Source: a virus
Direction: 5' to 3' (one strand)
Length of the DNA stretch: 29,078 bases
IMG/VR virus record: IMGVR_UViG_3300020442_003300
Coordinates: 1 to 29,078 of that record
The notes under the pieces were generated by a model, which had not been told where the DNA came from, made no database searches, and saw only the letters and a program-made list of their open reading frames with translations. Of the stretch, positions 6,248 through 16,704 are shown one piece after another. The translations under genes were made by a program, and so were the position numbers. Positions within the stretch are counted from its first letter, which is position 1; every line of letters starts with the position of its first letter.

Positions 6248-7616
6248 TGAGAATAGAATCTTTCATTAATTCTAACTCTGTCTGTATCTTACCCGTTGTT
6301 GCGGTGTGTGTCAATCTAACAATTACATACTTGCCACTATAACGTCTATCAGTCTCAATATTAGTTCCTGATTTGTATACTGCAGGGAGTGAAATATCAA
6401 TACCACTACCAGCATATAGATCAATATTTCCAGGAATCCTTACAAGGGCTTTAAGATTCTTTAGAGTCTCAACACGCATATATTGATATGCTTGCAATTG
6501 AACAAGTTCTTTGTAATTTTTCTGAGGATTATTTCTATACTTTTGATCAAAAATTTGATTTGGGAGCATAGTATATCTAACTCGTTTTGGTTTATACAAA
6601 ATATTTTGTATATCAACATCCATTTGTTGCAAAGGATTAGTTGTTTTGCTAGGATCTAGGTGAGACATCTTCGACCACACGTCGCGAATGTTGTACTCAT
6701 ATGCCATATCAGAAATATCACTACTCAGTCCCATTTTGGATGCAGTAATATTGACAGGATCAAATCCAACGCTATAACCAGCGATAGTTCCATGTCGTTG
6801 TGCAATTAAATTTTTATGCTCTTCGGGGAAACTGATCGCATTAATGGTATAATTATCAAGTTCTTCGTTTAAATTTTTGGGAGCATAAGTATAACGATAT
6901 AATCTCTTTTTATCTCGAATAATATCAGTGTTGATATTATCGCCCATAGTGTTCACGTCTTCAATAATTTTATCAATAGACTTAAAGTTATATCCTAGTG
7001 AATTTTCGTAAAACAAAAATCCATTCTGCAAATTATTACCTGTAGAAGATTTGCGTACACTTCTATTAGTCAACCAATAAACAACATCTAATGGTCTCCA
7101 ATTTGGAATGATAAAGTTGTGTCTAGAAACTGTATCTTCTACAAATACATTCTTTTTAGTTCCAAGAAACTTGTCATTCTTAAGTAAATTAGATACGATA
7201 TTTTCAGTCTCTGTATTGTTTTTAAACACGGTTTCCGAAGAACCAAATACATTTACTCCTTCGTTTTTAATAAATTCCTCAGAAACTGCAGAAATTGAAA
7301 ACATTTCACTGTTATTTTTATCACGGATTCTGTTAAATACGCCCGTGCATCTAAAATTATATACTCTATCAACTAAAGAAGTAAATACTTCCAACTTTAA
7401 CGTTTCACTACCAGTAAAGATAGATTGAATACCAATAGCGTCTTGAAAGATAAACTCCGCCTCCATTGTTGCCAGAGAAATATCTTCGGTAACACTCCAA
7501 CCTTGACAGAATTGTAATAAGTTAAATTCACCACCTTCCGTTTGTAAACGTTCGCCATTCCTATAGGCACTCAGTCTCCAATCGCATTCGCCTGGGGTAG
7601 TTCTTTGAATCGTCAT
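6243..7616 (-). CDS. gp27-like baseplate central hub protein
   Basis: A 457-aa protein placed between the tape-measure-like genes and, further on, gp5, which is where a hub protein is expected. The N-terminus (WRLSAYRNGERLQTEGGEFN) and following beta-rich stretches (LATMEAEFIFQD; LKLEVFTSLVDRVYNFRCTG), together with a late segment RIPGNIDLYAGSGIDISLP and a final SGKYVIVRLTHTA, resemble the hub fold of gp27 and Mu gp44 proteins. T4 gp27 is 391 aa. It would form the trimeric ring between the tube and the gp5 spike. Its start overlaps the upstream stop by 4 nt (ATGA). The call rests on position and pattern, so direct gp27 orthology is not proved. Confidence 0.65.
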   Translation of the reverse strand: MTIQRTTPGECDWRLSAYRNGERLQTEGGEFNLLQFCQGWSVTEDISLATMEAEFIFQDAIGIQSIFTGSETLKLEVFTSLVDRVYNFRCTGVFNRIRDKNNSEMFSISAVSEEFIKNEGVNVFGSSETVFKNNTETENIVSNLLKNDKFLGTKKNVFVEDTVSRHNFIIPNWRPLDVVYWLTNRSVRKSSTGNNLQNGFLFYENSLGYNFKSIDKIIEDVNTMGDNINTDIIRDKKRLYRYTYAPKNLNEELDNYTINAISFPEEHKNLIAQRHGTIAGYSVGFDPVNITASKMGLSSDISDMAYEYNIRDVWSKMSHLDPSKTTNPLQQMDVDIQNILYKPKRVRYTMLPNQIFDQKYRNNPQKNYKELVQLQAYQYMRVETLKNLKALVRIPGNIDLYAGSGIDISLPAVYKSGTNIETDRRYSGKYVIVRLTHTATTGKIQTELELMKDSILK

Positions 7617-10600
7617 GAGAATATGCCTCCTCCAGTCTTATTTAAGCCAGAATTAATAATAGATGCCATAGCACCACCGATTGATTGAGTAATTTTATTA
7701 CCACTACCACCAGTTAAAGTACCACCTCTAGCACCTTGACCAGCAGCAAGGTTAGCGATGGCGGATTGTGCTGCTGCAACAGATGCTCTTACTTGTGCAT
7801 TTGCTTGTTCAACTGCTGCCATGGTTTGTTGAACAGTCTGCTGAGCACGATCATTCATCTGTGTTCTTGCATACTGTCTCTGCTGCGTTACTTTTTGAAT
7901 TTCTGCAGATTCGCGTTCTTTCTTTCTATCACCACCAAAAGAGAATCCACCAGAAGTGCCTTGACCCTTCTTACCGTCACCCATCAACATAGCCATCAAT
8001 GGATTATCAAATAGACCACCTCTGGAAGCAGTACTATCATTTATACCATGTTCAGATACACTACCACCACCTTGCTGTCCACCACCAAGCAGAGCACCAA
8101 ATGGACTCTGAACAGATCCTCCTCTACCACCCTTTGCACCTGATCCTCTTACATTCATAGCACCTTTATTCATTCCTGAGGATGCTTTGAACATATCTCC
8201 AATGCCAGTGTTGAATGAAGGTGTAGAACCTGAAGGTAACTGATAAGCACCACCAGTATCTTTATAAGCAGGACCACCCTTACCATATGCATCACCAGCA
8301 CCAGGTGCCATACCACCCATTTTCGATATCAGATCCATATATTTGGTGCTACCAAATCCACTGAGATTACCACTGAACATTCCACCAAGACCTTGACTTT
8401 CAACCTGCTTCTTCATCTGTTGATATTGTCCATCGGACATACCACCAGGTGCCATAGTTTGACCTTCACCCGTTAAAGGATTAGTTACTTTTTCATCAGC
8501 AACTGCAACGTGCAGGTGAGGCATACCATAATTACCAGGTGGTTTTCTCTTTCTACCATACATCCATGCACCCCAATCATCATAAATGATAGACTGTAGT
8601 TTATTGTTTGCTTTTGCAGAGTACAGTGCTTCTGCAAAACTCTTCATCTTAGATTTTTGTCTTGTAGGATCTCCGCCCTGATAGTTGGCAATATCTAAAG
8701 CAAGACCGCGCTGGTGCATCGGACCTGCTGTTGCTTCTCTACCTGCTGCCTTATAACCTCTAATGTTAGGACCATCTTCACTCCAGTTATTTCTTGCAAA
8801 GAAAGGATGATTGAATACGGTCATACCGCGATTCAGAGCAGTTCTACCAATTTCCTTTGCTTTTTTTGGACCACCGCCGTCTAGTGAGACGCTGCCGTCT
8901 TCACCCATCGCAGAGTGACCAACGCCCATACCGCCTGCTGTGCCCTGCATTGCTCCTAATAATCCAGCAGCATCATCTTGCATACTACCAGGTAGTAAAC
9001 TCATTGGCGATGCTTGTCCCAGGGCAACTGCTAATAGATGAGGAAGTTTGCCACCTAAGAAGTTCTGCTTACCAAACAGGTGCAATCCTCGTGCCAATAA
9101 CTCAGGTAATTTTTCACCAAAAGTTTTACTATCATTCTTGAATAATAAATCACCAATATTTACAGCACCATTGATAAAATCTTGTGCATCTCTTCCAAAT
9201 ATCTTCTTACCCTTTAAGAACTCAAACGCAACACCAGTGCCGCCACGAATTACATCATACCAACTTGCAGACCCATCTTCATTGCTGCCACCACCACCAA
9301 AAATTGTTTGGATGAAGTTACCAATAGCATTACCTTTACCTTGCTGACCAAATAATCCACCAATCAGACCACCAATAGCACCACCTTGCTTGCTGAGACC
9401 CCTTAAAATACCACCAAGTCCGCCCTTAACTGTGCCATTTTGATTATAATCAAATCCAAAATATTTGTTACCAGTAAGCATTGAAGCGTACTGGGTGCCA
9501 CTCGCTAAAGGACCAATTCCAGAGGTTGCATCACCACTTCTATATCTTTTTTCACCACCTCCAAATATATTGCCAAAATTAAATGTTGGCATTGCGCCAG
9601 GAATCTTATAATCAAGATCTTGACCATATCCGAGGAATCCAGAGTCTTTGGTAGAATTGAAGGCACTACTAAAATCTAGACCACTTGTCGCTAGTCCCCC
9701 GCCGAAACCTCCTCCTCCTGAGCTACTGCTAGATTTGCTACCACCACCAAAAAGATTACCAATACCACTTGCGATACTGCTGAAGAATCCGCCACCGCCA
9801 CCGCCACCGCTACTACTGCTCTTGCTACCACCACTGAAGAAGTTGCCAATACCTTTAACAGCACCACTGAACGCCTTGCCGATGCTACCAAAGATCATTC
9901 CATCTTTACCTGCTGCCTCAGAGACAGAAGATCCACCAGGACTATATCCAGTTGATGAAGGCAATTTATCGGGTAACTTAAACCCTGCCATATGTGCCAA
10001 CTCCATATTGGCACGAGTCATCCCCGAAGAGTTGAACGGGATGACCATACTGTTACCAACAGAGTCTTTAGAGATATACTCCAGACCGTGACCAATAAAG
10101 TCGGGACGATTGCCCGTCATCGATGCTAGATATCCAGACTCAGGACCATTGATCCATCCACCACTGGACATCTCTTTGAGATTAAATCCACCCTTTAGTG
10201 CTTGACTAATCCTCTTACCAGTTAGTCCAGGATCTTTAATCGTGTCTGGTGTTTCAAACGGGATGACAAATGCATCACCACCAGGTTTTTGTGCTACAAA
10301 CTCTCTACCATGACCAATAAAATCAACACCCCTACCATCTAAGGTTACGGGATATCCTCCCATAGGTCCATCGATGTAACCACCTTGAGATCTTCCCCTT
10401 CTTCCGAATCTAAGCGCACCTCTAAAAAATTGACCTACTCGACTAGGTTTAGTTTTGACTGGTTTAGTTTTGACTGGTTTTTTACCACCACCAGTCGTTC
10501 CAGTTGGACCACTCTTACCTGCTGCTGTTTTTAGTTTTTGATGTCTTTTCTGAAGATTATTATTGAAATTAGTAAAGACATTTTTGAATGCAGCAAGAGT

Positions 10601-11242
10601 CTTTCCTGGTCTCAGCAGGAAATTCATTCCTAAGAATACTCCACCAATAACAGCAAACGCCTTTAAGAATCCTGTTAGTCTTTCCCAAGGTGTTGCATCA
10701 TCCCTAAGTAAGTCGTACATTCCATCAATGAATGTAACGACAGCAGACTTAATTAACCAAGCAAAAAAGTCTACAACCTTTTTAATCCCTTCTAGAATAG
10801 AGATAACTTTATTTTGGTTCTTTTCATCCGCCAACCATTCTAAGATTGGTTTTAATACCAAATATTTCAGTAATCCACCAAGGAATCCGAGTAAACCTTT
10901 GAAGAATTGAGGTGCAACTCTACCAAAAACTCCCGATGAGAATGAAAATGATCCCTTTAACTTTTCGGTCTTTGTATACTTTGCAACGAATGACTCTTTC
11001 TGTCTTCTCTTTTGCTCTGCTTTTAAACGCTTTACTTTTAACTGTCTAATACTATCAAGAGTCTTAGAAATGCCATTAAGACTCAACCCAATTCTATTGA
11101 TTGCATCTAATTGGGTTGCAAATACCTTCGCTTCTTTCTTCTGTTGATTTTTAGCAGCGGCATCCATGCCACGCCCAAAAGACACATTTGAGATTCCTGT
11201 CGTAGGAATGACCTTATATATGTTTACTGTCTTAGTTTCCAT
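7613..11242 (-). CDS. Giant tape-measure-like virion protein with M15-peptidase-like domain
   Basis: A 1209-aa protein. The N-terminus (1-110) is helical and basic. A hydrophobic part (about 110-215) contains LEWLADEKNQNKV and GVFLGMNFLLRP, which have clear counterparts in the 1519-aa neighbour. Residues 286-405 hold two copies of a repeat built around DFIGHGxE...VIPF. Residues 450-800 are Gly/Ser-rich. At 815-915 lies a domain resembling M15/VanY D,D-peptidases: His843-x6-Asp850 (MHQRGLALD) and His909-Leu-His911 (GMPHLHVAV), the pattern of a zinc site. A Gly-rich and Gln/Ala-rich tail follows. Probably part of the tail interior, exposed to peptidoglycan during entry. The exact place in the virion is inferred. 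Confidence 0.7.
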   Translation of the reverse strand: METKTVNIYKVIPTTGISNVSFGRGMDAAAKNQQKKEAKVFATQLDAINRIGLSLNGISKTLDSIRQLKVKRLKAEQKRRQKESFVAKYTKTEKLKGSFSFSSGVFGRVAPQFFKGLLGFLGGLLKYLVLKPILEWLADEKNQNKVISILEGIKKVVDFFAWLIKSAVVTFIDGMYDLLRDDATPWERLTGFLKAFAVIGGVFLGMNFLLRPGKTLAAFKNVFTNFNNNLQKRHQKLKTAAGKSGPTGTTGGGKKPVKTKPVKTKPSRVGQFFRGALRFGRRGRSQGGYIDGPMGGYPVTLDGRGVDFIGHGREFVAQKPGGDAFVIPFETPDTIKDPGLTGKRISQALKGGFNLKEMSSGGWINGPESGYLASMTGNRPDFIGHGLEYISKDSVGNSMVIPFNSSGMTRANMELAHMAGFKLPDKLPSSTGYSPGGSSVSEAAGKDGMIFGSIGKAFSGAVKGIGNFFSGGSKSSSSGGGGGGGFFSSIASGIGNLFGGGSKSSSSSGGGGFGGGLATSGLDFSSAFNSTKDSGFLGYGQDLDYKIPGAMPTFNFGNIFGGGEKRYRSGDATSGIGPLASGTQYASMLTGNKYFGFDYNQNGTVKGGLGGILRGLSKQGGAIGGLIGGLFGQQGKGNAIGNFIQTIFGGGGSNEDGSASWYDVIRGGTGVAFEFLKGKKIFGRDAQDFINGAVNIGDLLFKNDSKTFGEKLPELLARGLHLFGKQNFLGGKLPHLLAVALGQASPMSLLPGSMQDDAAGLLGAMQGTAGGMGVGHSAMGEDGSVSLDGGGPKKAKEIGRTALNRGMTVFNHPFFARNNWSEDGPNIRGYKAAGREATAGPMHQRGLALDIANYQGGDPTRQKSKMKSFAEALYSAKANNKLQSIIYDDWGAWMYGRKRKPPGNYGMPHLHVAVADEKVTNPLTGEGQTMAPGGMSDGQYQQMKKQVESQGLGGMFSGNLSGFGSTKYMDLISKMGGMAPGAGDAYGKGGPAYKDTGGAYQLPSGSTPSFNTGIGDMFKASSGMNKGAMNVRGSGAKGGRGGSVQSPFGALLGGGQQGGGSVSEHGINDSTASRGGLFDNPLMAMLMGDGKKGQGTSGGFSFGGDRKKERESAEIQKVTQQRQYARTQMNDRAQQTVQQTMAAVEQANAQVRASVAAAQSAIANLAAGQGARGGTLTGGSGNKITQSIGGAMASIINSGLNKTGGGIFS
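10446..10475 (-). repeat. 15-bp tandem repeat in the 1209-aa gene
   Basis: GGTTTAGTTTTGACT (plus strand) occurs twice in direct tandem at 10446-10460 and 10461-10475. It encodes a KTKPV-type doublet in a basic, proline-containing linker ahead of the DFIGHG repeats. It is in frame (5 codons), so copy changes would only alter linker length. Confidence 0.85.
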
Positions 11243-11245
11243 TTA

Positions 11246-14200
11246 TTACTTCTTAGCTGGCTGCTGCTGAGCGGGTGCCTTTTGTGGAATATACTGTGTA
11301 TTATTTATCGGTACTGGTCGATCGATAGGAACTAACTTCAACAGAATCAGAGGAATAGGAACGAATTCCATGGCAGTCTGCATAGCATATTCTGCAGAAA
11401 TGCCACCCTTAGGATCAAATGCGCTAACCTGTTGATTGAAGATACCAAATACCCTTGGGTCAACACCTAACTCTGGTGATTGCTGCATCAATGCATTTTG
11501 CATCGTCATACCAGCGACACCCGCCAAGGCATCAAAGACACCACCCATACCAAACTGACCTGCTAATGTTCTAGCAATACCAATAGGTCCAGGCATACCT
11601 GGGAATTCTTCCAATCCGAATAGATTCGATAGTCCAGGAATATTGGCAACACCTGGGATACTCTTGATAATCGCACCGACTGTCGGATTCTTCTGAATGA
11701 ATTTACCAATACCACCGAAGAATTTTTGTACCCCCTCTGGTAACATTCCACCAAGACCGCCTAGTGCTCCACCAATACCTCCCTTAAGGAATCCATTAAC
11801 AACACCACCAAGACCACTTCCTAACGTATCAGTAACTCCTTGGAAGAAGTTACCCATAGTTTCTGGGAAGAAACCAGTTAAAGCACCAACAGTATTAGTA
11901 ATTGCACCAATAATATCACCAGATGCAAGAGCAGTAACTGCCTTAATACCAGCAATAACAGGTGCTAATGGTGGGAAAATAACACCAACGGCAGTTGTAA
12001 GTAAACTACCAACTGGAGAACTGAGGAAATTACCAACCCCTTTTACAACACCACTGACTGCCTTTACAACGCCATTAAACGCCTTTTTAATACCCTTGAA
12101 AATACCACCAAGGAAGAATGGTTTCAGGTTGTTAGGTACTTTACCGCCTGCAGAGAAACCAAATGCCTTACCGAAATCAAGACCACTTGTTTTGAAACTG
12201 CTACCGAAATCTAAACCCTTACCCGAATAATCACCCCAACCAGGAATCTTGTCTTGCCAACCCGTAGAGTTGGTCCACATGTCCACTTTTTGACCATCTG
12301 GACCATATGGATTCAGACCTCTATTTTTTCCGAAAAGATCCCTTAAGTCAAATCCCTTTGTCCCGCTATAAGTATCGGGATTTAATGGACCCATACCACG
12401 AGTGGCACTCTCTACATCGAGTCCCATCTCTTTCATCAAATCGCCTAAAGACGATTTTGATCCATCAGGTGCAGTAAAATCTGTCTGATTATCATAATCT
12501 AAGGTGCCAGTTGGAGGACCACCACCCGCGCTAGTGCCATCACTAGGACGCATGTACGGATTGACTGGTATTCCTGTATTTTCTGGATTGAATAAATCAA
12601 ATGGATTTAAGGAACCCTCTTTACCTTGTTTGTATAGGTCTACTGCCTGTTCAAGAGGTGTTCTTTCTCCTAGACCACCAACAGTGTTTAAATTATAAGC
12701 AGAATATTTACCATCTAATATCCCTTGTGCAACCTTCTTCGCCTCGTCAGACGATAGAGGGGTGTCTGTGCCTCCTGATTTAGAGGGTAAAACCGCGTAG
12801 CCGCTATCATCCTGTGCTGAAGTTGTTGGACTTTTTGTAGAGCTGTCTTCGCTTCCTCCCTCAGGATCTGGAATCCAATCTAATCCGTCCCAGACAACAG
12901 GTTTACCCTGAAGAGTTGCTTTCTGACCTACAGCACGACTAACAGGTGCCTCATATTGCTGTGATTCTGTAACGAAGGATGTCTTAGGTTGTACTAATGG
13001 TGTTGTTGATGAAGGAGGACGAGCAGTTCCAGATAAAATATCTAATACAGTTCCATATGCCTTATTAATTCCGTCTTTATCATATACACCCGTTCCATCA
13101 GCTCTTTTGATTGATGCGAACTGACCAGCAAGACCGTTATTATATGCTGCGTTAGAAATCTGACCTGCTTTCCATTTCTTCTGACCTGCCATGTCCAGGT
13201 AGTATTCAACCATCTTGTCCTGGTTTGCAGGAGAGAATAGTGCATTTCTGCTTACTCCTGCATAATCTGCAGCAAGTTCAGGGAACAGCATTTGATATGC
13301 ACCAACAGCAGCACTCCTCTTACTCGCAGGAATACCCTTTGATGCTTGGTGTCTAAGATATGCCTTCTGCCAATCAACAACTTGGTTGATGGTCATCTTT
13401 GTTAGATCTTCACCAGCACGACCAAACCCACCTAAGTATGCCTTGAAAGGTGTAGCATAGTTATTACCAGATTCTAATTGTCTGATTCTAGTTTTCAGAT
13501 CATTTCCAACAGAACCTTTAACTACTGGTGGTGTTCCACCCTCGGGTTGGGGAGTTGATCCAGAACCAACACTTTGTGTTTTCCTTATACTAGTTCCAGC
13601 ATTGAAGCCTCTCATAACGACTTCTTTTACATCATATCGATTTCGTTTTAACTGAGCATTACCACCACCCAGTTTAAAGAAATTAAATGCTTCATCGCTG
13701 TTGAAATTTCTCCTTGTCAAAGGACCATACATTTCAACTTTATTCCATCCACCCTGTTGACGTACATAATATTCTTTAGTTCCTCCAAAGAAGAAACCAC
13801 CTACAGTCTTATATGCTAATTCACCATCTCTCCAATTTTTTGTATTATCCCATGCTCTAATTTTAAACTTTTCTAGAAAAGCATCTCTTGCTTGTTTAAG
13901 TGCTGCTGCTCTTTGTTCCTCTTCTGCACGCTGAGCAGCCCTCTGGCGGTTGCGTTCTCTTTCTTTTGCCTTCTGTGCTGCACGTCCACCTGTTTGACCT
14001 GCACTCTGTCTTTCTTTGAAGAAATCAACAAACGCCTTAAATGCTTTTGATGCAGTTCCAACGGCATCAACCTTGATAGGAGTTACAGGTTTGTCATGAT
14101 TAAATGCTTGATCAAATAACTTTTTAGCAGCTGCAGGATCATAAGGCAATTGTAATACTGATGGGTCTAAGATCTTAAATCCACCAATTTTAAATCCAAG

Positions 14201-15805
14201 AATATCAACTTGAGGAATTTCAAACTGAGGCAGTGCCTGCCACATTCTAACGAAACTCGTTTTGATAAAGTTTCCTGCATCCCCTAATTTACTTACAGTC
14301 CACTGAAATGCTGGAACAATATTCTTCTGCCAGAGATCTCTGGCATCCATGATAATTTTTCTCTTGACACCCTCAATACCACCGCCTCTGGGATCATTCT
14401 TATTAAAGAACATGTAGGCTAAATCGCCTGCATATTGACCCGCTATCATACCAACGGTAGATCCTATAATAGGAATAGGAATAACTGCAGTACCAATAGC
14501 ACCACCAATTAAGGTTCCGATTGTTTCAAAAGCAACCTTTTCAATGGGATCACCATCTAATAATCCAATCGCAGCAGTAATAATACCACCGACCCAAGGA
14601 ACTCTACTCGCCCATGTTTTTACACCTGCTTTCAGAGCTGCAGCACCTGGTCCACCAAGTAATGCAGTAATAGGTTTAGCATTTTTACCAAACGCTTTAA
14701 GTATTGCTCGTCTAGGAATAGCACCTACTCCTCGTCCTGCAATATTACTGCCAGTTCCTCTACCCAGAAGAGTCTTATTCTCTGCTCTAAGTTTCGCAAT
14801 TAATGCAGCCTGTCTTTGCTGTGCTAACCTTGCTTGATTGAGGCGAGCCTGCATCTGTGCAGGTGTTGACCTTTGATTCTTGGGAATCTGATTACCATCA
14901 GGTCTAGTAGTTGGTGGTTTAAATCCAGGTTTAGTAGTCCCAGTCCCAGTGCCAGTTCCAGGTTTTACTGGTCTATTATTAGGTCCAATCTCTTCCCATT
15001 TACCTGTCTTGGTATTCTTTCTATATCTTCTCTGTTGTCCATCAGGACCATCAATATAAACATCATCAAGAGCGTCTGCAACTCGTGTAGCCTTATTCCT
15101 ATAAAAATCTAACCCCAGTAAACTGAGGATAGCATCCATAGTACCGAATGGATTGAGTAAGAAACCTAATCCAACAATACCAGTGATGATCTTCCACAGA
15201 CCACCTACTCGCTCACCAAAACTCTTATCTTTTCCGAAGGTTTGATTTATACCTTCAATCAGACTATCAACTACTAAGAATTTTACAATTCCAGCAATCT
15301 TATTGAATACAAATGAAGCCTTTCGGAAAAACGTGACTAGTTTTTCTCTGTTCTTAGGATCTGCAACCCACTCTAACGTAGACTTTACTGCATAAAGTCC
15401 TGCTAACTTAACAATGAAAGCAAAGGCAGCTTTGGCAAGACCACCCAGTCCACTTAATAAATTTCCAAAGAAACCATCCGCCTTCTTCTTATCTTTGGCA
15501 GATAACTTTCCTTTAGTTACTATTGATCCAGCACCTTGTATGCCTCTCTCAGCATTTTCTTCGGCAAGGCGATCCGCTTCTCTTCTTTTTCTTCTTCTTT
15601 CTGCGATTTCACGCAGTTTATCATTTTCAATTAAATCAATCTCAGCACTCTCAATCGATTTTAAAGACGATTGGATACCCTTCAGTGAGTACTGAATTCC
15701 TGCAAATGCTTTTATGTTAGCTCGTGTGGCATGAACAGCAACAGGGGAGGTGATTCCTTGACCACCGCCCCCTCCTGTTAACTTATAGACATCGAGTTTT
15801 GCCAC
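11246..15805 (-). CDS. Giant tape-measure-like virion protein with lysozyme-like domain
   Basis: A 1519-aa protein starting at GTG (15803-15805), directly after the gp51-like frame. Residues 1-110 are helical and charged. Residues 115-225 contain LEWVADPKNREKL and VGLGFLLNPF, paralogous to the 1209-aa protein. Further hydrophobic Gly-rich stretches occur near 390-460 and 1230-1450, as in tape measures. At about 765-925 lies a lysozyme/transglycosylase-like domain with a candidate catalytic Glu778 (LESGNNY), followed by SAVGAYQML and NNGLAGQF, typical of phage-tail muramidases. Length and position downstream of gp26/gp51 suggest it sets tail length or lies in the tube and cuts peptidoglycan on entry. 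Not similar enough by eye to call gp29. Confidence 0.7.
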   Translation of the reverse strand: MAKLDVYKLTGGGGGQGITSPVAVHATRANIKAFAGIQYSLKGIQSSLKSIESAEIDLIENDKLREIAERRRKRREADRLAEENAERGIQGAGSIVTKGKLSAKDKKKADGFFGNLLSGLGGLAKAAFAFIVKLAGLYAVKSTLEWVADPKNREKLVTFFRKASFVFNKIAGIVKFLVVDSLIEGINQTFGKDKSFGERVGGLWKIITGIVGLGFLLNPFGTMDAILSLLGLDFYRNKATRVADALDDVYIDGPDGQQRRYRKNTKTGKWEEIGPNNRPVKPGTGTGTGTTKPGFKPPTTRPDGNQIPKNQRSTPAQMQARLNQARLAQQRQAALIAKLRAENKTLLGRGTGSNIAGRGVGAIPRRAILKAFGKNAKPITALLGGPGAAALKAGVKTWASRVPWVGGIITAAIGLLDGDPIEKVAFETIGTLIGGAIGTAVIPIPIIGSTVGMIAGQYAGDLAYMFFNKNDPRGGGIEGVKRKIIMDARDLWQKNIVPAFQWTVSKLGDAGNFIKTSFVRMWQALPQFEIPQVDILGFKIGGFKILDPSVLQLPYDPAAAKKLFDQAFNHDKPVTPIKVDAVGTASKAFKAFVDFFKERQSAGQTGGRAAQKAKERERNRQRAAQRAEEEQRAAALKQARDAFLEKFKIRAWDNTKNWRDGELAYKTVGGFFFGGTKEYYVRQQGGWNKVEMYGPLTRRNFNSDEAFNFFKLGGGNAQLKRNRYDVKEVVMRGFNAGTSIRKTQSVGSGSTPQPEGGTPPVVKGSVGNDLKTRIRQLESGNNYATPFKAYLGGFGRAGEDLTKMTINQVVDWQKAYLRHQASKGIPASKRSAAVGAYQMLFPELAADYAGVSRNALFSPANQDKMVEYYLDMAGQKKWKAGQISNAAYNNGLAGQFASIKRADGTGVYDKDGINKAYGTVLDILSGTARPPSSTTPLVQPKTSFVTESQQYEAPVSRAVGQKATLQGKPVVWDGLDWIPDPEGGSEDSSTKSPTTSAQDDSGYAVLPSKSGGTDTPLSSDEAKKVAQGILDGKYSAYNLNTVGGLGERTPLEQAVDLYKQGKEGSLNPFDLFNPENTGIPVNPYMRPSDGTSAGGGPPTGTLDYDNQTDFTAPDGSKSSLGDLMKEMGLDVESATRGMGPLNPDTYSGTKGFDLRDLFGKNRGLNPYGPDGQKVDMWTNSTGWQDKIPGWGDYSGKGLDFGSSFKTSGLDFGKAFGFSAGGKVPNNLKPFFLGGIFKGIKKAFNGVVKAVSGVVKGVGNFLSSPVGSLLTTAVGVIFPPLAPVIAGIKAVTALASGDIIGAITNTVGALTGFFPETMGNFFQGVTDTLGSGLGGVVNGFLKGGIGGALGGLGGMLPEGVQKFFGGIGKFIQKNPTVGAIIKSIPGVANIPGLSNLFGLEEFPGMPGPIGIARTLAGQFGMGGVFDALAGVAGMTMQNALMQQSPELGVDPRVFGIFNQQVSAFDPKGGISAEYAMQTAMEFVPIPLILLKLVPIDRPVPINNTQYIPQKAPAQQQPAKK
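11302..11309 (-). promoter_or_regulatory. Possible internal late promoter before the 1209-aa gene
   Basis: GATAAATA on the minus strand lies in the 3' coding end of the 1519-aa gene, 60 nt before the next start codon. It matches the late element, but as it is inside coding sequence it may be chance. Confidence 0.3.
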
Positions 15806-15811
15806 TTATTG

Positions 15812-16003
15812 CTATCTTGAGTTTTTGTTGTCTTGCATTCTTCTAGATTCCTCTTTCAAGAAATCTGTGAGCATCATAATGTAAACTTCCTTCTCCCAGG
15901 GTAAAAGGTTTTCAATGTATTGAACATCCCATTTATGGTGGTGCATCAATGCAAAATTAGTCTGGAAATAATTCTCCAGAGTATTATGGAGAAGTGCTAT
16001 GCG
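15812..16003 (-). CDS. 51: gp51-like baseplate/tail assembly frame, probably expressed by -1 frameshift from gp26
   Basis: The frame gives 63 codons after the gp26 slip site (RIALLHNTLENYFQ...) and ends TAG at 15812-15814. The block MHHHKWDVQYIENLLPWE resembles the short gp51-type proteins next to gp26 in T4-like phages (HKW...ENLLPWE). The first ATG in frame is at 15944-15946, which would give only 44 aa, lose the N-terminal helix and have no Shine-Dalgarno sequence. Upstream of that ATG there are only CTG, TTG or ATA codons before a stop in the gp26 region. A -1 slip at 16003-16009 would instead join it to gp26 as a 297-aa protein. T4 gp51 acts as a catalyst in hub assembly. Confidence 0.65.
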   Translation of the reverse strand, partial: RIALLHNTLENYFQTNFALMHHHKWDVQYIENLLPWEKEVYIMMLTDFLKEESRRMQDNKNSR

Positions 16004-16009
16004 AAAAAA
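15972..16009 (-). promoter_or_regulatory. Putative -1 programmed ribosomal frameshift signal
   Basis: In the last gp26 codons the heptamer T TTT TTC (16003-16009, in the gp26 frame) fits X XXY YYZ. A 9-nt spacer (15994-16002) contains the gp26 TAG stop. A perfect 7-bp stem TTCTCCA/TGGAGAA (15987-15993 with 15972-15978) with an 8-nt loop follows. The -1 frame leads directly into the gp51-like frame. All parts are seen in the sequence; the function is inferred. Confidence 0.65.
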
Positions 16010-16704
16010 CTCGCCAAGCCCTCTAACTCAACATCACTTTCTACACCAGTATTGGGGTTAGTAACCTTTAAGGTATACGCCAATTTAGGCATAGTCTCAA
16101 AGAATTCTTGAATTAGTTTGAACTGAGAAGATGTGAGTGATTCAAAGAATTCATTCAACTCTTCTTTCGTAGAATCCGAAGCATCATATACTTGTTCTGC
16201 ATCAGAAATACTTTCAATGCAACTCGCAGCCATTTTAAATACCTGCTCTACACCCTGATCTTCAGAGAAATTCATTTCGACAAAAGTATCAAGACTAGGA
16301 TACTTCATTTTTACAATGACACTATCATCAAGTTTGATTTCGGGTTTATGACCTCTAGTTTTCTTGACTTTAATGTCATCAAGAGGAATTTCTGCCTCTA
16401 CAGTAGTTTCATTATCATCAGGGCAAGTGATTTGAACATTTACAGTTTCACCAACAGACTTAGTACGAATCTGAAGGAAGACATATTCAATATCAAATGT
16501 TGCTAGATTTTCAACATCTGTAATATCAGAACATTCAGAAATAATTTGCTTAATCGCGTCAAACAACCCATCCTGTCCACCCGTCTCAGTTGCGATCAAA
16601 AGAAGTTTTTCTTCTTTCACTAAGAACGGTCTAAAATTAACTACTCTACCATCAGAAGGTAGTTTTAGTTTATATCGGGGGGTGTTTAATTTAGGTAATG
16701 CCAT
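15997..16704 (-). CDS. 26: gp26-type baseplate hub/tail assembly protein
   Basis: A 235-aa acidic protein of the T4 gp26 type (T4_baseplate family; T4 gp26 is 208 aa). It starts MALPKLNTPRYKLKLPSDG, then VNFRPFLVKEEKLLLIA, the most typical part of the family. A helical run follows (LFDAIKQIISECSD), then a beta segment with TCPDDNETTVEAEIPL, and a C-terminal helical part ending VELEGLASFFA. In T4 it belongs to the hub assembly set with gp51, gp27, gp28 and gp29. It lies between a tube-fold protein and a tape-measure-like protein, the position of gpG-type chaperones in other phages. A late promoter precedes it and a frameshift signal covers its last codons. Confidence 0.8.
   Translation of the reverse strand: MALPKLNTPRYKLKLPSDGRVVNFRPFLVKEEKLLLIATETGGQDGLFDAIKQIISECSDITDVENLATFDIEYVFLQIRTKSVGETVNVQITCPDDNETTVEAEIPLDDIKVKKTRGHKPEIKLDDSVIVKMKYPSLDTFVEMNFSEDQGVEQVFKMAASCIESISDAEQVYDASDSTKEELNEFFESLTSSQFKLIQEFFETMPKLAYTLKVTNPNTGVESDVELEGLASFFA

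Follow-up and report, generated by a model that had tools for sequence, protein, structure and literature searches.

The gp26 locus and the frame that overlaps its end

The window, that is, the whole 29,078-nt stretch of viral DNA analysed here (IMG/VR record IMGVR_UViG_3300020442_003300), carries a gp26 homologue whose 3′ end is overlapped by an open reading frame in the -1 register. The features of the locus, with the gene that comes next, are:

15997..16704, minus strand: gp26 homologue, putative short tail assembly chaperone (TAC-N, G-like), 235 aa
16019..16023, minus strand: GAGGG, Shine-Dalgarno (SD)-like putative 5′ stimulator, 9 nt before the heptamer
16003..16009, minus strand: slippery heptamer T_TTT_TTC, identical in the window and in 80/80 viral-contig loci
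15997..15999, minus strand: gp26 stop codon TAG, one sense codon past the heptamer
15812..16003, minus strand: -1 frame extension, 'gp51-like', putative C-terminal domain of the long chaperone (TAC-NC, GT-like), 63 codons plus stop
15972..15993, minus strand: perfect 7-bp stem with an 8-nt loop, candidate 3′ stimulator of the original prediction, -8.3 kcal/mol
15961..15980, minus strand: alternative 8-bp hairpin that overlaps the former and shares one arm with it, -9.1 kcal/mol
15944..15946, minus strand: earliest ATG of the -1 frame, lying within the conserved domain, an unlikely start
11246..15805, minus strand: next gene, 1519-aa lysozyme-containing tail protein (phrog_790, E=7e-162), a candidate for the tape measure from gene order

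In profile searches, gp26 matched PF12322 (T4_baseplate) with E=3.4e-76 and 256 bits, against a curated cut-off of 24.5, and phrog_150 with E=4.3e-88, covering positions 5-232 of 282. The zero-frame 3′ end of the gene reads GCG AGT TTT TTC GCA TAG. In the -1 frame, reading continues from codon CGC (16003) to a stop at 15814-15812, and gp26 together with this extension makes a fusion of 297 aa. TAC-N/TAC-NC pairs are recognised by this arrangement, in which a slippery heptamer in the last part of a short ORF links it to an overlapping -1 ORF. The original prediction had described the heptamer, a 9-nt spacer containing the TAG, the 7-bp hairpin and the 63-codon -1 frame, and had given 235 and 297 aa for gp26 and the fusion; positions and sizes were all reproduced. 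The match of the -1 frame to phrog_634 ('baseplate hub assembly catalyst', E=2.2e-28) begins at profile position 54; in phrog_150 the frame matched positions 226-277, the part of that profile absent from gp26.

An AlphaFold2 model of gp26 had a mean pLDDT of 85.5. Its residues 1-87 resembled the HK97 tail assembly chaperone 2ob9 (Z 7.0, below 8; rmsd 3.7; 83 of 104), followed by 3fgx (Z 5.9, also below 8), with unrelated chains at 4.6 and below, a ranking that favours a TAC fold but is not conclusive. Foldseek alone returned nothing below E=1 for the gp26 model, and chaperones came first only in the second structural comparison; the gp26 profile found no relative among the sequences of solved structures.

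The 1519-aa product of the next gene has endolysin/lysozyme-type profile matches and weak matches to tape-measure profiles (phrog_1272, E=4e-4; phrog_4200, E=2e-3). Gene order and these weak matches suggest that the neighbouring giant proteins may act as the tape measure. The two giant tail proteins, encoded at 7613-11242 (1209 aa) and 11246-15805 (1519 aa), have N-terminal matches to phrog_1200, 2588, 17500 and 22508 in common and appear to have diverged from a duplicated sequence.

Conservation of the slippery heptamer and its flanking signals

Conservation was assessed in the window and 80 viral-contig loci (51-72% identity in gp26). T_TTT_TTC is present in the same register in 81/81 loci and the gp26 stop codon lies exactly one sense codon past it in all of them, as TAG (68), TAA (11) or TGA (2). 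Elsewhere in the gp26 genes of these loci phenylalanine is encoded by TTT 675 times and by TTC 242 times, and for that reason codon usage alone does not explain an invariant TTT followed by an invariant TTC. Judged from this pattern, the slip signal is evidently under strong selection. T_TTT_TTC or T_TTT_TTT occupies the same place in the reference phages Syn19, P-SSM2, Mosig, S-CRM01, vB_OspM_OC, nt-1, Aeh1, S13, pf16, Astolliot, Moby, OLIVR6 and ORM_20, and the equivalent place in four further Synechococcus phages. The alignment of junctions in relatives, which had been proposed as a check, has thus shown the heptamer to be conserved well outside the window; the same site is found in Kyanoviridae, several Straboviridae and other T4-related groups. 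A tblastn search with the -1 product (65 residues) found a homologous frame in 560 phage records and, among the matches listed, nearly all begin at the slip site or at most 3 residues from it. With nt-1 gp26 as the query for more distant loci, two loci were obtained.

A few phages depart from this pattern. Rhizobium phage RL38J1 carries the variant T_TTT_TTG, and its slip site lies within the annotated terminal repeat of the record (L007:1-320), so that in the deposited record the gp26-gp51 junction spans the two genome ends. The Ackermannviridae phages SenALZ1 and EP75 and Klebsiella phage Madison retain a homologous -1 frame after gp26; their junctions (L094:1990-2220, L099:1470-1700 and L100:1490-1720) have neither a standard heptamer (GAR ATT TTC ATT TAA) nor an ATG start. 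In Vibrio phage D494 (L098:1746-2000) the heptamer is absent and an ATG in the -1 frame overlaps the gp26 stop (TAATGG); therefore, reinitiation may replace the slip in that lineage.

Upstream of the heptamer, at the GAGGG site, GAG was used in 54/75 cases versus 536/1682 elsewhere in gp26 (Fisher p=5e-12), and GGG in 22/75 versus 28/464 (p=3e-8), p-values that overstate the case because the sequences are related and not independent. The Glu-Gly pair encoded by GAGGG is invariant and thus the SD-like signal is partly forced by the protein.

Downstream of the heptamer, the first 45 bases fold far more stably than synonymous recodings of the same stretch, with mean z between -2.7 and -2.9 as against 0 to -1 in control windows. 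The stems mostly begin 0-11 nt downstream and covary in two lineages. In one of them the stem has 11 bp and starts 5 nt past the heptamer, and one of its pairs appears as UA, AU or GC, a compensatory change; in the other, a stem of 5 bp, 10 nt past the heptamer, has changed on both sides at three pairs (16 double-changed cells). The subgroup to which the window belongs shows weak folding there on average (z -0.9), the window itself being at about -3. The 7-bp hairpin of the original prediction (15993-15972) does exist, with its 8-nt loop; it begins 9 nt after the heptamer, and when the window was recoded synonymously a 7-bp stem at that spacing arose in only 0.18% of cases. However, it competes with the slightly more stable 8-bp hairpin (15980-15961), which begins 22 nt after the heptamer and is the minimum free energy fold of the stretch. 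RNAalifold covariation gave no common structure in the window's own subgroup, which is why we do not claim that the 7-bp hairpin is conserved, and within the closest subgroup it is partly kept (5 bp) only in Syn19. A well-folding downstream stretch is thus found in most relatives, but this particular stem is plausible only as a stimulator private to the window. The whole arrangement, an SD-like element and a stem-loop at suitable spacing around the heptamer, corresponds to a dnaX-type cassette, with a weak fold in the window's own subgroup.

Probable expression of the -1 frame and its counterpart in T4

How is the -1 frame translated? The original prediction was right that the N-terminal part of the gp51-like frame lacks an ATG or GTG start: before the ATG at 15946, the sole possible start in the window is a TTG at 15949, and no Shine-Dalgarno sequence was found upstream of either codon. 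The first start lies in the middle of the domain, at +59 to +62, in the window and the majority of close relatives, and in two loci (L011 and L087) the first one listed is at +104, past about half of the domain. The ATG equivalent to 15946 is missing or positioned elsewhere in several relatives. Non-standard starts, such as an ATA overlapping the TAG, were rejected, as both the residue and the codon at that place vary among relatives. Between the gp26 stop and +61, pN/pS in the 20 closest sequences is 0.225 in the -1 frame and 1.3 and 2.0 in the other two, a contrast which shows purifying selection on the -1 frame ahead of any start codon. For such a startless conserved coding stretch behind a perfect heptamer, a -1 slip is the best explanation.

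A second line of evidence comes from T4. T4 gp51 matches phrog_150 from 13 to 280 of 282 in a single frame, and PF12322 with its first 201 residues, whereas T4 gp26 covers 14-235 of phrog_150 only, ending where the cyanophage slip site lies. The BLAST alignment of the 297-aa fusion with T4 gp51 runs through the junction, and a two-sequence comparison of gp26 with gp51 gave a weak match (E about 4e-6). By these alignments T4 gp51 is homologous over its full length to the whole fusion, the extension as well as the part resembling gp26, and the long form thus exists as a continuous protein in a relative. T4 therefore has a short and a long paralogous copy of the same protein. The original prediction had correctly taken T4 gp26 and gp51 as separate genes but had missed that gp51 corresponds to the entire fusion. 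Among 19 complete phage genomes, T4 was the only one with a second full-length gp26-type gene; in the other 18, phrog_150 matched nothing besides gp26 except, in some, the -1 fragment that follows it. A T4-type gp51 was found in 1339 phage records.

We are therefore confident that a single tail assembly chaperone gene is read in two ways, -1 programmed ribosomal frameshifting yielding the 297-aa long form besides gp26. The majority of ribosomes would terminate at the TAG and produce gp26 (235 aa, TAC-N), and a minority would slip by -1 on U_UUU_UUC, bypass the stop and produce the 297-aa TAC-NC with its 63-residue C-terminal domain. Two elements would probably promote the slip, as similar ones do in E. 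coli dnaX: the SD-like GAGGG inside the gene, ahead of the heptamer, and an RNA hairpin behind it. On the model of lambda gpG/gpGT, the tape measure protein would be covered by numerous copies of the short form and a few of the long one, and the latter would bring in tail tube subunits through its C-terminal domain. Slippage itself, its rate and the chaperone role are inferred, the last from family, position and the lambda G/GT precedent (PMC5009743).

Public annotations present gp26 and gp51 as two genes, and in many relatives an ATG lies two bases past the gp26 stop or overlaps it (for example in S-CRM01 and nt-1). Both facts would be accounted for if gp51 were made alone, by ribosomes that reinitiate after terminating on gp26 or that start internally, for instance at the ATG at 15946, but we consider this improbable. 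For the window and the majority of close relatives, the first start falls mid-domain or later, in the window without an SD sequence, and yet the residues ahead of it are conserved and under purifying selection. A separate gp51 would moreover leave the invariance of the heptamer without a reason, and T4 carries the whole fusion as one gene. In many relatives of other subgroups, where a -1-frame ATG is found at +14 or +23, reinitiation could add a separate short product. Even less credence is due to transcriptional slippage on the T run, by which mRNAs with a shifted frame would arise. Six consecutive T followed by a hairpin might suggest it, but the run is never longer than six bases in 81 loci, bacterial slippage has been described on runs of about nine (PMC5009743), and both the zero-frame register T_TTT_TTC and the fixed distance to the stop fit tandem slippage by the ribosome. 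The proposal that a -1 slip generates a G/GT-like pair is hence well supported, because the heptamer is conserved, the -1 frame is conserved and startless, stimulators are present and the complete relatives have no second gp26-type gene; what needs correction is its T4 picture and the view that the system was undescribed.

Relation to known systems and significance

T4-like tail assembly chaperones were identified by Vladimirov, Gautam and Davidson in 2022 (Virology 566:9-15, doi 10.1016/j.virol.2021.11.003), according to PMC10885494 and PMC12846349. The first of these, PRFect, summarises that work and the second cites it for poly-T slip signals in T4-like phages. As far as these citing papers convey its content, the locus therefore belongs to a described system; the original prediction had known of no description in cyanomyoviruses. 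The content of the 2022 article aside, our search found no literature on this frameshift in cyanophages, and in none of the relatives' records examined is the fusion annotated as a joined gene.

The closest likeness by family is T4 itself, gp26 being the short form and gp51 the full fusion; the difference is that T4 obtains the two forms from two genes, whereas here, and in most T4-related phages examined, one gene and a -1 slip would provide both. With lambda G/GT the locus has in common overlapping genes near the tape measure gene (here a candidate), a -1 slip, here predicted, shortly before the short form ends, and a long form with an additional C-terminal domain. The lambda slip site is G_GGA_AAG and that of the present locus T_TTT_TTC, the comparison being one of layout. 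The E. coli dnaX arrangement consists of an SD-like element upstream, the heptamer and a stem-loop downstream (PMC5009743); the present locus resembles it in these elements and in the homopolymeric character of the heptamer, but the run is of A in dnaX and of U here, and the slip shortens the dnaX product whereas it would lengthen this one. The TAC locus of Vandenendeviridae and Andersonviridae (GTTTTT, PMC12846349) likewise has a poly-T -1 site near the end of TAC-N and a downstream frame mis-annotated as a separate gene. These are other phage families, likened to gp26 here by layout.

Why has the extension been annotated as a gene of its own? In loci L010-L089 an in-frame Met codon is common about 62 bases past the slip, within the conserved motif FALMHHHKW/FSLMQYHKY, and it may have misled gene callers into proposing short gp51 genes.

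The slip trick is well known in phages and the locus does not represent a novel kind of system. Very probably, this marine phage and its relatives make a short and a long version of the chaperone by a one-base slip of the ribosome. For the wider proposal we see about an even chance: that in hundreds of cyanophage and related genomes a dnaX-like GAGGG, T_TTT_TTC and lineage-specific hairpins generate a chaperone fusion, that the annotated core 'gp51' is no separate gene, and that the 3′ stimulator has been re-invented repeatedly around a fixed slip site. By this evidence, the 'hub assembly catalyst' fragment that appears in the annotations of hundreds of marine phages would be the C-terminal part of a tail chaperone. 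The use of two genes in T4 and of recoding in its relatives offers a natural comparison for understanding why the ratio of the two forms matters, and the finding bears on what the cyanobacterial ribosome must do during infection.
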